Shown here piece by piece: positions 43,718-49,837 of a DNA stretch of 64,000 nucleotides. Location: the NCBI GenBank assembly GCA_014378525.1, contig JACMNL010000132.1, positions 1-64,000 of the forward strand, in the 5' to 3' direction. The notes below the pieces were generated by a model. That model was not told where the DNA came from and did no database searches. It was given only the letters and a program-made list of their open reading frames with translations. Both the position numbers and the translations under genes were made by a program. The DNA is from Bacteriovorax sp. GTDB taxonomy: Bacteria; Bdellovibrionota; Bacteriovoracia; Bacteriovoracales; Bacteriovoracaceae. The stretch's first letter is position 1. Every line of letters begins with the position of its first letter.

Positions 43718-45568
43718 ATGGATGATTTTGAAAAAGAAGTTAAGTTAGATTTTTTAACTGAAGCACTTCAGCTCCTTGATGATTCTGAGCAGGCATTTTT
43801 AGCACTGGAAAGTGATAAAAATAACGCTGATCTGATGAACCAGATCTTCAGACTGGCCCACAATTTAAAAGGAACTTCTCGAGCAGTAGGTTTCGGAGAT
43901 GTGGCCGAGTTCACTCACGAATTTGAAAACTTGATTTTAAAATTAAAAGAAGGGCATCTGGAAATTACAGACGCCATCGTTTCACTTTTACTTGAATGTA
44001 ATGACCACGTCAGCGTGATGATTAAAATGCTGAACATGGACTTGAATGCAAGATTTGAATCGAAAGAAATTATTGAAAAAATTCTTTCTGCACTCTCAGG
44101 AAATTTAACTATGGCAGCAGCTCCTGTTGCAACAGCGGTTGAAGAAATGACGGAAGAAGAAACTATTTCTGCAGATGATATAGCTCTACTTGCAAGCTTT
44201 GAAGCAAATTTAAATGCACCTTCGGAACCAATGACTGCAGAAGAGTCTGCTCAGAGAGCAGAGTCTTTTTTCCCGACAGAAAAACCAGCAGTGGCAGTTG
44301 CTCCGGTAGTTGCACCGGTACATGCTGAACCAGAACAGAAAAAAGCAGCAGCTCCGGCCGCAAAAGGAAATTCAGAAGACGACAGTATCCGCGTAAGTTT
44401 ATCGCGCGTAGAAATGCTCAACAACGTTGTTGGAGAGTTGGTTATTATCCAGACAGTGTTAAACCAGCACAGAGAAGAAGTTTCAAATCCACTGATGTTG
44501 AAATCGCTTTCTCAACTGGCGAAACTTTCAAAAGAAATCCAGAACATTTCCATGAGTCTTCGTATGGTTCCTCTAAAACAAACACTGCAAAAGATGCAAA
44601 GAATTGTTCGTGATACTTCAAAAGCTCTTAACAAGCAGGTCAACCTCGAGTTGATCGGTGAAGATACAGAAATTGATAAAACAGTCCTTGAGCATTTAGC
44701 AGATCCACTGGTTCACATTGTTAGAAACGCTGTTGATCATGGGCTTGAAACAACTGAAGGAAGAATTGCTGCCGGAAAACCTGAGATTGGTACGGTCACA
44801 ATTAAAGCTGCTCACGAAGGAAATAACCTAGTGATCGAAATAAGCGAAGACGGAAAAGGAATCAATCCTCAAGTCATTCGCGGGATCGCAGTGAAAAAAG
44901 GCCTTATCTCAGAAAATGCAACAATGAGTGATGACGACATCATCAATCTTATTTTCCACCCTGGATTTTCTACGAAAGAAGCTGTCTCAGAAATTTCAGG
45001 ACGCGGAGTAGGAATGGATGTTGTAAAAACCAACATCGCAAAACTATCCGGTGAAGTAAAAATCATCACTGAAATCGGGAAAGGTTCTACTTTTAAAGTT
45101 GTTCTTCCGCTTACACTTGCCATCATCGAAGCGATGGTGACAAAAATCGGCGAAGAAACTTATATCATTCCTCTTGGACAGGTTTACGAATCGCTTTCTC
45201 CTACAGCAGACCTGGTTCACCATGTGAATGGTGTGGGTGACTGTCTGAAAATTAGAGGAGACGTCATTCCATTATTTAAAATTTCCAAAGCACTTCAGAG
45301 AACGATGAAAGAGAAGCCTCTTAATGAGCAGATCGCAATTATTGTAAACACTGAAGAAAGAAGTTTTGCCGTTCTGGTTGATGACATTCTTCACCAGCAG
45401 CAGGTTGTTATTAAAAAACTTGGCGATGAAATCAAGAATCAGAAAGGTTTCATGGGAAGCACGATTTTAGGAGACGGGAAACCCGCTCTTATCCTGGACC
45501 TGGTTGAATTATTTGCAGGATCAATGAAAAAGAAAAAGACTAACTTTATCGAAGAGATGGCCGCATAG
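43718..45568 (+). CDS. cheA: Chemotaxis histidine kinase CheA
   Basis: Hpt 'LAHNLKGTSRAVGF', 'HLADPLVHIVRNAVDHGLE', CheW-like C-terminus; no obvious P2. Confidence 0.96.
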   Translation: MDDFEKEVKLDFLTEALQLLDDSEQAFLALESDKNNADLMNQIFRLAHNLKGTSRAVGFGDVAEFTHEFENLILKLKEGHLEITDAIVSLLLECNDHVSVMIKMLNMDLNARFESKEIIEKILSALSGNLTMAAAPVATAVEEMTEEETISADDIALLASFEANLNAPSEPMTAEESAQRAESFFPTEKPAVAVAPVVAPVHAEPEQKKAAAPAAKGNSEDDSIRVSLSRVEMLNNVVGELVIIQTVLNQHREEVSNPLMLKSLSQLAKLSKEIQNISMSLRMVPLKQTLQKMQRIVRDTSKALNKQVNLELIGEDTEIDKTVLEHLADPLVHIVRNAVDHGLETTEGRIAAGKPEIGTVTIKAAHEGNNLVIEISEDGKGINPQVIRGIAVKKGLISENATMSDDDIINLIFHPGFSTKEAVSEISGRGVGMDVVKTNIAKLSGEVKIITEIGKGSTFKVVLPLTLAIIEAMVTKIGEETYIIPLGQVYESLSPTADLVHHVNGVGDCLKIRGDVIPLFKISKALQRTMKEKPLNEQIAIIVNTEERSFAVLVDDILHQQQVVIKKLGDEIKNQKGFMGSTILGDGKPALILDLVELFAGSMKKKKTNFIEEMAA

Positions 45569-45577
45569 GAGACCAAG

Positions 45578-46078
45578 ATGGAAAAAGACAATGTAATGAA
45601 AATGAAGAAACAATCTACAACTGAACTCAGTCGATTCATCGAATTCAGCCTGGGTTCTGAAGACTATGCCATCCCACTTTTAATGGTGAGAGAGGTTATT
45701 TCGGTTCCGGATACAACTCCGATTCCAAAATCGCCGGCACATTTTTTAGGAATTATGAACCTGAGAGGTCAGGTAATTTCTGTTGTCGATCTTAGAAAAA
45801 AATTAAAAGTAGAAGCACGCCAGGACAAAGAAGAAGCAGTAATCATCGTTGATATCGGTGGAATGAATATTGGTGTGGTTGTAGATTCAATCAATAAGGT
45901 TCTTGCATTTTCTTCTGAAGACGTAAGTGAAATGCCGGAAGTAGAACACCAGAACAATACTCAGTACATTTTTGGTGTTTATAAAAAAGAACACTCGCTA
46001 ACGATTCTTCTTGATATCGCCAAGGTCCTGGACCTGAAAGATATGGAAGCCATCAGCGGAATGAAAAAAGCTGCATAA
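45578..46078 (+). CDS. cheW: Chemotaxis coupling protein CheW
   Basis: 'RFIEFSLGSEDYAIPLLMVREVISVPDTTPIPKSPAHFLGIMNLRGQVISVVDLRKKL'. Confidence 0.96.
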   Translation: MEKDNVMKMKKQSTTELSRFIEFSLGSEDYAIPLLMVREVISVPDTTPIPKSPAHFLGIMNLRGQVISVVDLRKKLKVEARQDKEEAVIIVDIGGMNIGVVVDSINKVLAFSSEDVSEMPEVEHQNNTQYIFGVYKKEHSLTILLDIAKVLDLKDMEAISGMKKAA

Positions 46079-46120: not shown

Positions 46121-47971
46121 ATGAGTCAGGCAGTTGCTGGTAGTATCAGTAAAGAATTTATTTCTTTAATTGATAAGGTTTCTAGTGTCGTCCATAAAAT
46201 TTCAGGAAACCGCCTTGGTGAAAAACAGGCGTACATGGTTGAGACGCGTGTAAAAAAGCGTATGATGGAACTGGGACTTAAAACTCCTGATGAATACATG
46301 AAATATATCGATGCTCACTTCGATCATGAATCCTATATACTGGTTGGTCTGATTACCACACACCATACTTTTTTCTTCAGAGAGTTTCCACATTTTGAAA
46401 TATTAAAAAACAAACTTCCGGAGCTTGTGGCCCACGTAAAAAAGCGCGGCGATAAAACTTTAAGTGTATGGTCAGCTGCGTGTTCAAAGGGACATGAAGT
46501 TTACTCACTGGCCATGTTTTTAGATTTCCATATGTCACAAATTGATCCGACAATCTCTTTTAAAATTCTTGGAACTGATATCGACGGCGAGTCTGTTAAG
46601 ATTGCAGGAAACGGTGTTTATCATCACAATGAAATCAAAGAAATACCTATGAACTTCATGGGAGACAACTGGACCAAAGGGACAGGCGATATCGCCATGT
46701 ACGCCAAAGTCAAAACAAAATTAAAATCAAAATGTGAATTCAGACCAGGCAATCTTTTAAAAGTAAGTGAAGCAGTAAAAAATGAAAAATTTGACGTTAT
46801 CTTTTGCAGAAATGTTTTTATTTATTTTGAAACTCACCAGGTAGAATCGATCTCCAAAGATTTAATAAATAGACTTCAACCACATGGAATTTATTTTTCT
46901 GGAATTTCTGAGCCATTATCAGGAATGAAACTTGATATTTCTTCGATCGGGCCCTCTGCTTATGTTCACAAGAGTGCAGTACCTGCAACACCAGCACCAG
47001 TTGGAAACGTTATTCCAATGCGAGCGTCGGTAAGTTTCCAGCCGCAAATCTTAAAAGTAATGTGCGTGGACGACTCACCAAGTATATTAACACTACTTAA
47101 AAAAGTTCTTACTCCGGAACACGGATTTGAAATCGTTGCGACTGCCGTCAATGGTAAAGATGCAATGGAAAAATTAAAAACTGTAAAAGTAGATTTAATG
47201 ACTCTCGATATTCACATGCCGGAAATGGATGGTGTGACTTATCTGGAGAAAAATCACAATAAATCACATCCTCCGGTTATGATCATTTCATCTGCCTCGA
47301 GAGCAGACTCTGATACAGCAATGAAAGCGTTTAAGTTCGGGGCAAGTGACTATGTTGAAAAACCAGCACTGGCAAATCTTGAAGAGCGTGGAGAAGAGAT
47401 CAGAACAAAACTTAGATCAATTGCAGGAAGTGCGCAAAGAAGTACTGTGGTTTCTTCTTTTGATAAAGAGAACCAGAAAACTTTCCTGATCACAAATCCG
47501 GAAAAGAAAATGAGACTGATCCTGGGCTCATTGTCAGATCTTCCGGTGTTCAAAGCTTTCTTTCATGACATGGATAACTCACAGCCACCTACACTGATCT
47601 TCTTTGAAGGATCAGGGGAAATTCTTGAAGGCATCGTTAGAGAGCACCAGAGAGATTTTAAGAAGACAGTGGTTTTTTTTGACAGCATGGAAACAAAACT
47701 TGAAGCGAACAAAATTTATTTTGTAGACTTCAAAAAATATTTCTCACAAATTCACTTGAAGTATCAGACATGCCCGACTTCAATTCTGTCCTATGGAAAT
47801 ACATCTGCGCATGCAGCAAAGGCCGTGAAAGACTGGAAAAATTGCGAATTATTACTGGAAGACCTGGGAGAAAAAGCGAATCCGAAACACCCGTTGAAAA
47901 TGTACGCACAGGACGTCGTTCCTGCGACAAGTTTTCCTTATATGTCATGCCGCTACCTGAGTACGAAGTAG
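46121..47971 (+). CDS. CheR methyltransferase-REC-degenerate CheB-like fusion
   Basis: CheR 'HHTFFFREFPHFEIL', 'VWSAACSKGHEVYSLAMFL', 'DVIFCRNVFIYF'; REC 'VMCVDDSPSILTLLKK...TLDIHMPEMDGV'; C-terminal about 150 aa lacks CheB catalytic motifs. Confidence 0.85.
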   Translation: MSQAVAGSISKEFISLIDKVSSVVHKISGNRLGEKQAYMVETRVKKRMMELGLKTPDEYMKYIDAHFDHESYILVGLITTHHTFFFREFPHFEILKNKLPELVAHVKKRGDKTLSVWSAACSKGHEVYSLAMFLDFHMSQIDPTISFKILGTDIDGESVKIAGNGVYHHNEIKEIPMNFMGDNWTKGTGDIAMYAKVKTKLKSKCEFRPGNLLKVSEAVKNEKFDVIFCRNVFIYFETHQVESISKDLINRLQPHGIYFSGISEPLSGMKLDISSIGPSAYVHKSAVPATPAPVGNVIPMRASVSFQPQILKVMCVDDSPSILTLLKKVLTPEHGFEIVATAVNGKDAMEKLKTVKVDLMTLDIHMPEMDGVTYLEKNHNKSHPPVMIISSASRADSDTAMKAFKFGASDYVEKPALANLEERGEEIRTKLRSIAGSAQRSTVVSSFDKENQKTFLITNPEKKMRLILGSLSDLPVFKAFFHDMDNSQPPTLIFFEGSGEILEGIVREHQRDFKKTVVFFDSMETKLEANKIYFVDFKKYFSQIHLKYQTCPTSILSYGNTSAHAAKAVKDWKNCELLLEDLGEKANPKHPLKMYAQDVVPATSFPYMSCRYLSTK

Positions 47972-47978
47972 GATTGTA

Positions 47979-49439
47979 ATGAAAAAATTGCTGCCGCAGA
48001 AAATTCAGACAAAACGTGAAGGCGGAGAGTTCCTGACGAGTCTCATTCCAGGAGACGCTTTTATTTCTTTTCACCATTCTAATGGTGAATGCATGGCCGT
48101 ATATTTTAAAAAGTTTGACCTGATTCCGGTGAATTTTGAAAAACTAAATGAATCGGTGAAAGAGTATTTTTCAGGAGAGTTCAGCAAAATAGAAATGAAA
48201 GTGATTGCAGTTACAAAGTCACTTGATATTATAAGCGATTTTTTCACGCCTAAAAAATTCCAGTCGATTAAAAAAATCGAAAAAAATGGTCAGGTTGAAG
48301 TTTGTTTTCTACCTGAGATTAACAAAGTCAGGGTTTCAATTGTGCCATCTGTGGTAGAAGAAAAACCTCGAGTTGCTCCAAAAGTTATGCCGACTAAATT
48401 TAAAGTTTTAGTTGTCGATGATTCAAAAACCATCAGGACAATTTTATCGCGTATCTTTTCAAGTGATCCGATGTTTGAAGTTTGCGCCATGGCCGAAAGA
48501 CCCTCTGAAGTTGAAGCACTGATTTTAAAACACAAACCGGATGTTATCACTCTCGATATTCACATGCCGGAAATGGATGGTGTGACGTTGTTAAAAACAA
48601 TCATCACTCCGAAGTATCACATTCCAACGGTGATGATTTCAAGTATCAGTATGGCCGAAGGGCCGCTGGTTTTAGACGCCCTGGAAAACGGTGCTGTCGA
48701 TTATATCCAGAAGCCCGAGATGTCGGAGATTGAAAAGGTCACACCTTTCATCCTGGAAAAAGTCAGAACAGCTGCAATGGCCAACACGAACAAAAGAACT
48801 TCGCGTGAAAGACCCGCAAGCATCCAGACCAAAGAAAAATGTAATATGGACTCACTGATTGTTTTAGGTTCATCAACAGGTGGAACTGAAGCGATAAGAG
48901 ATATTCTTACGGCCATGCCGGACCAGATTCCGCCGATGCTGATCGTTCAGCATATACCTGCAGTTTTTTCGCTGGCATTTGCCAAAAGAATGAACGACCT
49001 CTGTCCGTTTGAAGTAAAAGAAGCGGAAGACGGTGATGAAGTAAAAATCAACCGCGTGCTCATCGCTCCCGGTGGAATGCAGATGAAGATGGTCCACAAG
49101 GCCGGAAAAACGTATGTTGAAATCAACGACGATGAACCTGTAAACAGATTCAAGCCGTCAGTGGATTATATGTTCTTAACTGTCGCTAAAAGTCTTTACA
49201 CGCATACCGTTGCCGTTATTTTAACCGGGATGGGAAAAGACGGTGCGAAGGGAATGCTGGAGCTTCGTAATCATGGCGTGAGAACAATCGCTCAGGACGA
49301 AGAGACATCAGTTGTTTTTGGTATGCCGAAAGAAGCAATAAACATCGGTGCTGCAGAATTTGTTGAACCACTTTTAGGTATCGCCGAAAGAATCACTATA
49401 TTAACAAATCAAAAAAAAAGTAGAAAGGAAGTTTCATGA
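47979..49439 (+). CDS. cheB: CheB methylesterase with N-terminal CheD-like extension
   Basis: REC 'VLVVDDSKTIRTIL'; catalytic 'GSSTGGTEAI', 'LIVQHIP', 'VILTGMGKDGAKG'; about 130-aa N-terminal extension. Confidence 0.92.
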   Translation: MKKLLPQKIQTKREGGEFLTSLIPGDAFISFHHSNGECMAVYFKKFDLIPVNFEKLNESVKEYFSGEFSKIEMKVIAVTKSLDIISDFFTPKKFQSIKKIEKNGQVEVCFLPEINKVRVSIVPSVVEEKPRVAPKVMPTKFKVLVVDDSKTIRTILSRIFSSDPMFEVCAMAERPSEVEALILKHKPDVITLDIHMPEMDGVTLLKTIITPKYHIPTVMISSISMAEGPLVLDALENGAVDYIQKPEMSEIEKVTPFILEKVRTAAMANTNKRTSRERPASIQTKEKCNMDSLIVLGSSTGGTEAIRDILTAMPDQIPPMLIVQHIPAVFSLAFAKRMNDLCPFEVKEAEDGDEVKINRVLIAPGGMQMKMVHKAGKTYVEINDDEPVNRFKPSVDYMFLTVAKSLYTHTVAVILTGMGKDGAKGMLELRNHGVRTIAQDEETSVVFGMPKEAINIGAAEFVEPLLGIAERITILTNQKKSRKEVS

Positions 49440-49837
49440 AAAAAGTTCTAATTGTTGAAGATGAAAAAGATATACGTGAAATACTTGATGAGGTTTTCAG
49501 AAAAGATCTGGGCTTCACACATGTGACATTTGCTACGGATGGTCTAGAAGGATACACCGAAGCCTATCTCCAGAAATTTGATCTGATCTGTACAGATCAT
49601 GCTATGCCTTATTGCAAAGGCAGCGACATGGTTTTTGGCATTAGAAATAAAACCGGAATAAATCAACATACTCCTATCATCATGGTTTCCGCTCTTATCT
49701 CTGAATTTGCTGACAAGATGGAAAATATGGAGAGCACCTATTTCATTGAAAAACCTATCGATTTTTCACGCCTTAGTCGCTACGTTAAGATGGCAATGAT
49801 GAATTCAAAAAATAGAACTGATTCAGACGCTGCTTAG
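49436..49837 (+). CDS. Single-domain response regulator (CheY-like)
   Basis: 'VLIVEDEKDIREIL', 'DLICTDHAMP', K in 'FIEKP'. Confidence 0.92.
   Translation: MKKVLIVEDEKDIREILDEVFRKDLGFTHVTFATDGLEGYTEAYLQKFDLICTDHAMPYCKGSDMVFGIRNKTGINQHTPIIMVSALISEFADKMENMESTYFIEKPIDFSRLSRYVKMAMMNSKNRTDSDAA

Follow-up and report, generated by a model that had tools for sequence, protein, structure and literature searches.

A CheR methyltransferase joined through a receiver to a probable pseudo-CheB domain in Bacteriovorax sp.

A gene in a chemotaxis cluster of Bacteriovorax sp. encodes a CheR methyltransferase that is followed by a receiver domain (REC) and by a C-terminal domain, referred to here as X. Domain X is very probably a pseudo-CheB catalytic domain. 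The gene lies in a 64,000-nucleotide stretch of contig JACMNL010000132.1, and this whole stretch is called the window (Table 1). A preliminary description of this DNA had read the protein as CheR-REC followed by a catalytically dead CheB domain. This reading is upheld by Pfam, by AlphaFold and Foldseek, and by a motif scan. The layout recurs in several families of the phylum and X is under selection, and regulation or positioning of the live enzyme is thus the probable role of the dead copy.

Table 1. Features of the chemotaxis cluster in the window
Feature	Position	Strand	Basis
CheA histidine kinase	43718..45568	+	
CheW	45578..46078	+	
CheR-REC-pseudoCheB ORF (616 aa)	46121..47971	+	Pfam, Foldseek
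CheR methyltransferase (CheR_N and SAM-binding domain)	46172..46945	+	Pfam; conservation over 69 homologues
Receiver domain of the CheR protein	47057..47368	+	Pfam; conservation over 69 homologues
Linker helix region	47369..47500	+	Conservation over 69 homologues
Probable pseudo-CheB catalytic domain (X)	47501..47968	+	AlphaFold, Foldseek, profile-profile comparison, motif scan
GSLSDL, at the place of CheB GSSTGG	47525..47542	+	Sequence alignment
FFEG, at the place of CheB VQHIP	47600..47611	+	Sequence alignment
YGNTSAHA, at the place of CheB TGMGxDGA	47792..47815	+	Alignment by hand
PATSF, near-invariant X signature (P-x-T-S-F)	47921..47935	+	Conservation over 69 homologues
Next gene, pseudoCheD-REC-CheB (486 aa)	47979..49439	+	
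N-terminal domain, CheD-like in its model	47979..48338	+	AlphaFold, Foldseek, sequences
Receiver domain of the active CheB	48405..48725	+	Pfam
CheB catalytic domain with intact GSSTGG, QHIP and TGMGKDG	48858..49394	+	Pfam, motifs
Single-domain receiver (CheY-like)	49436..49837	+	

Domain layout, fold and active-site region

Pfam recognizes CheR_N (residues 18-65), the SAM-binding CheR domain (82-275, E 3.8e-44) and Response_reg (313-416) in the 616-residue protein, and it gives no significant match C-terminal to the receiver. The CheR motifs ACSxGxE, GTD, CRNxxIYF and FFRE are intact. They are invariant or nearly so when residue conservation is computed over 69 homologues. The receiver has an acidic pair (DD, 317-318), the phospho-acceptor D363, S391 and K414. 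D317, D318, D363 and K414 are invariant in the same homologues, as are E426 and K430 of the linker. Judged by its sequence, the receiver has the residues needed for phosphorylation, and it precedes X in the chain just as the receiver precedes the catalytic domain in CheB.

Domain X comprises residues 461-616. Its AlphaFold model, built on an alignment of 38 sequences, has a pLDDT of 85.5. Five PDB matches were returned by Foldseek at E < 0.001 and all of them are CheB (1chd, 6ymz), so that no unrelated fold was encountered at this level. The first match, 1chd, has an E-value of 7.4e-5 and a moderate TM-score of 0.58, with about 200 columns aligned. The strongest match outside CheB, to an ion channel, is weaker than that to 1chd by a factor of about 60.

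Comparison of profiles by hhalign matched X to the intact CheB domain of CheR-REC-CheB fusions (E 4e-6, probability 87%), with controls against CheR, CheD and the N-terminal domain of the next ORF at E 0.1-0.4; E-values from pairwise profile comparison and from small databases are rough. The match places columns 40-128 of X on the part of CheB that starts ahead of GASTGG and runs to the YIAPGG strand, and reciprocal HMM searches between X and CheB in small databases agree. Single X sequences fall below the Pfam CheB_methylest cut-off, with one member at E 0.093, and the X profile did not find CheB when compared with the PDB by sequence. The strings quoted in the preliminary description do occur in the protein, and the alignment to the neighboring CheB that had earlier been made by hand is essentially right, as judged by profile-profile comparison and by the Foldseek alignment to 1chd.

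Other identities for X were considered. CheD and CheR were rejected by profile comparison. A REC-like domain was also rejected, since the profile match to REC covers the shared linker only. Weak sequence-search matches of X and of the N-terminal domain of the next ORF to UMPH-1, HycI and the hypothetical protein PF0523 were unconfirmed by the fold search.

The place of the nucleophilic Ser of CheB is occupied in X by L471 (mostly L, I or F in homologues) and that of the His by E496, both read from sequence alignment and not from a superposition. When aligned by hand, the segment YGNTSAHA at the place of the Asp motif contains no Asp. None of GSSTGG, QHIP and TGMGxDG was found by the motif scan in X of the window protein or of the listed family homologues. 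A QHMP string in one homologue (L051) sits inside its CheR domain, outside X. The triad motifs were also not found in the X domain of 19 further X-bearing proteins from elsewhere in the phylum, with the exception of an isolated QHLT somewhere in L140. The preliminary description had listed motifs of the GSSTGG, VQHIP and MGKDG type as missing, and the scan agrees; catalytic residues elsewhere in X were looked for and none was found. X does not have the Ser-His-Asp catalytic triad and is thus predicted to be catalytically dead. With a CheB fold that is devoid of the triad motifs, the earlier phrase "methyltransferase fused to a pseudo-methylesterase" is correct. The regulation within one chain and the decoy role that were proposed along with it are hypothetical.

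The surroundings of the site are altered as well. Between the strand IYFVDF and the strand before YGN, both next to the active site, X has 21 residues and the neighboring CheB has 51, which makes X shorter there by about 30 residues.

Neighboring CheB gene, distribution and descent

The CheR-type and CheB-type ORFs form a pair that is flanked by CheA, CheW and a single-domain receiver. The second ORF of the pair holds the sole CheB match in the window's genome (93% complete, 144 contigs). This genome also has three CheR matches, and CheD is matched twice in it, on other contigs. A CheR match other than the one described here (L127; G000 contig 104:3858-4400) is found in a 972-aa open frame. 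A 115-aa antisense ORF (47730-48077) overlaps the CheR gene at its end and the CheB gene at its start and is probably spurious.

The N-terminal domain of the CheB protein, which had not been remarked on earlier, was modeled by AlphaFold with a pLDDT of 92.9. The top Foldseek match of this model is CheD from Thermotoga maritima (2f9z_C, E 2.8e-5, prob 1.00), and NTAN1 structures rank after CheD. The domain has no Pfam match, was not identified by a sequence search of the PDB, and gave E 0.09 against CheD in hhalign, which is not significant. The GSC and HxxLP motifs, which hold the Cys and His of CheD, were not found in it; some relatives keep a Cys near the place of the CheD Cys. On the strength of the model, we take the domain to be CheD-like and without the Cys/His motifs. 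The CheB gene then appears to mirror the CheR gene, with a live enzyme joined to a dead CheD-like domain.

When a sample of 236 genomes from across the phylum was surveyed with the X profile, 68 of them gave a match, under several family codes. This recurrence was also absent from the preliminary description. The named relatives retrieved with this profile are Bacteriovorax, Halobacteriovorax and other assemblies, which bear the labels Bacteriovoracaceae, Bdellovibrionales, Oligoflexia or Proteobacteria. Relatives that are 62-88% identical to the CheR protein of the window mostly have the same genus code. Conservation of X in relatives of the same family, its presence in these 68 genomes and its low dN/dS speak against X being a product of chance.

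A CheR tree built from 51 rows, rooted with two stand-alone CheRs and containing several long branches, places the X-type in the midst of CheR-REC-CheB fusions whose triads are intact. A single clade of all intact fusions is rejected (p-AU 0.00027), and a single clade of the X-types with their fused forms is not (p-AU 0.275). This nesting makes the loss of catalysis in a fused methylesterase probable. X thus probably arose from a fused CheR-REC-CheB ancestor, and the loss perhaps happened once.

Possible roles of the pseudo-CheB domain

We consider the following explanation, taken as a whole, reasonably likely. CheR is very probably joined here to a full CheB-type regulatory half, consisting of REC and the catalytic-domain fold, in which the methylesterase site has been lost. 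In the mechanism that we propose, CheA would phosphorylate the REC of CheR-REC-pseudoCheB, and the REC/pseudoCheB interface would open or close as in CheB. The non-catalytic module would then gate CheR or position it on receptors. Demethylation would fall to the CheB encoded next door, which is joined to the dead CheD-like domain, and the same kinase would drive methylation and demethylation via the paired receivers. That a CheA-phosphorylated, non-catalytic module steers CheR is put forward tentatively. It is more doubtful that the two neighboring live enzymes, each carrying a dead receptor-modifying enzyme through its receiver, make up a kinase-controlled adaptation complex with the pseudoenzymes positioning it on receptors.

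In evolutionary rate, X has its strongest coupling with the REC of its own protein (partial r 0.35) and no direct coupling with the neighboring CheD-like domain (partial r 0.04); these partial correlations derive from non-independent pairwise distances and carry no significance level. This pattern favors a kept REC/pseudoCheB interface, and with it a non-catalytic module under phosphorylation control that would act on CheR or on where CheR is placed, over direct docking between the pseudo-domains. Docking is a possible explanation, to which we give a rather low probability: the pseudo-CheB and the pseudo-CheD would hold CheR and CheB as one adaptation complex and would become dispensable once the two are fused. 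Single chains that unite the two proteins do occur (L045, 1073 aa; L048, 1062 aa; L049, 1048 aa; L134, 1179 aa), and these chains retain stretches between the catalytic domains, as docking would have it. The downstream CheB keeps all three triad motifs in the first three of them. An 808-aa CheR-REC-REC-CheB protein adjoining cheA (L135:2906-5332) also suits this explanation: both pseudo-domains are missing from its sequence, and in the CheR tree it groups with L150, an X-type (support 99/93). However, joint loss of the pseudo-domains is seen in this one case only, and a contact between them is not supported by the rates. In two other genomes (G053 and G047; L129 and L130), moreover, the X-type gene lies away from cheA/cheW and no downstream CheB gene was seen in the surrounding region. 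Each of these genomes has a single CheB match, which lies on another contig and belongs to an intact CheR-REC-CheB fusion. The pairing is thus not obligatory.

It is unlikely that the pseudo-CheB acts as a decoy, which would occupy the receptor sites of CheB or compete for CheA phosphate and so restrain the active CheB until it is needed. A CheB fold without the triad, a complete REC that could accept CheA phosphate and an active CheB encoded next door are all consistent with such a role. The residues missing from X lie close to the active site, however, and receptor binding may have been lost with them.

A repurposed enzyme, with a new active site around the conserved E580, D581, D598, T603 and S604, is improbable. 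They rank with the best-conserved residues of X. The signature P-x-T-S-F is the most conserved part of X proper, with P and S kept in 68, T in 63 and F in 59 of the 69 homologues, and it occupies the place of TSVVYGMP in CheB. The five residues stand where CheB has QDE...TSVVYGMP, though, and may be structural, and Pfam, PDB and Foldseek searches found no similarity of X to another enzyme family.

That X is a decaying remnant without function was already disfavored and is very improbable: X has diverged more than CheR or REC, but its median dN is 0.29 and 0.39 in two sets of 12 relatives, its dN/dS of about 0.07-0.2 indicates purifying selection (a rough figure, because dS, near 2 at about 2.2, is near saturation), its motif is near-invariant, and it is retained across many genera and several families.

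Comparison with known systems

The REC-X half resembles the CheB methylesterase (PF01339; 1chd, 6ymz) in combining a REC with the catalytic-domain fold in the same order, and in a conserved acidic, TS-containing C-terminal stretch at the corresponding place. It differs from CheB in the missing Ser, His and Asp motifs, in the shortening beside the active site and in its fusion behind CheR. The intact CheR-REC-CheB fusions (L054, L055, L056, L061 and others) have the same domain order, a similar length and related CheRs. They differ from the X-type in that the triad motifs are present, and they are thus presumably bifunctional methyltransferases/methylesterases. The N-terminal domain of the next ORF has its fold in common with CheD (PF03975; 2f9z chain C). 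It differs from CheD in being without GSC and HxxLP and in not being recognized by sequence. A CheD that Pfam does recognize is fused to REC-CheB in L064:2249-3874, where GPC is kept and the His of HxxLP is missing.

In the textbook scheme, phosphorylation acts on CheB but not on CheR. Regulation of CheR by the module, if it occurs, would depart from that scheme by placing the methylation step directly under the control of CheA through phosphorylation. Pseudoenzymes are well known as regulators elsewhere. The portions of the open-access literature that were covered contained no pseudoenzyme among the chemotaxis adaptation enzymes and no report of a dead CheB or of CheR-CheB and CheD-CheB fusions arranged in this way. 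The proposal can be tested by comparison, given the spread of the layout across the phylum, its intact relatives, and the natural fusions that either keep or lack the pseudo-domains.

The CheR-TPR fusion FrzF is described as having an extra domain that restricts the number of sites methylated (PMC3447774). As in FrzF-type fusions, CheR is joined here to a non-catalytic domain. The partner in FrzF consists of TPR repeats, whereas here it is a receiver with a predicted dead esterase.
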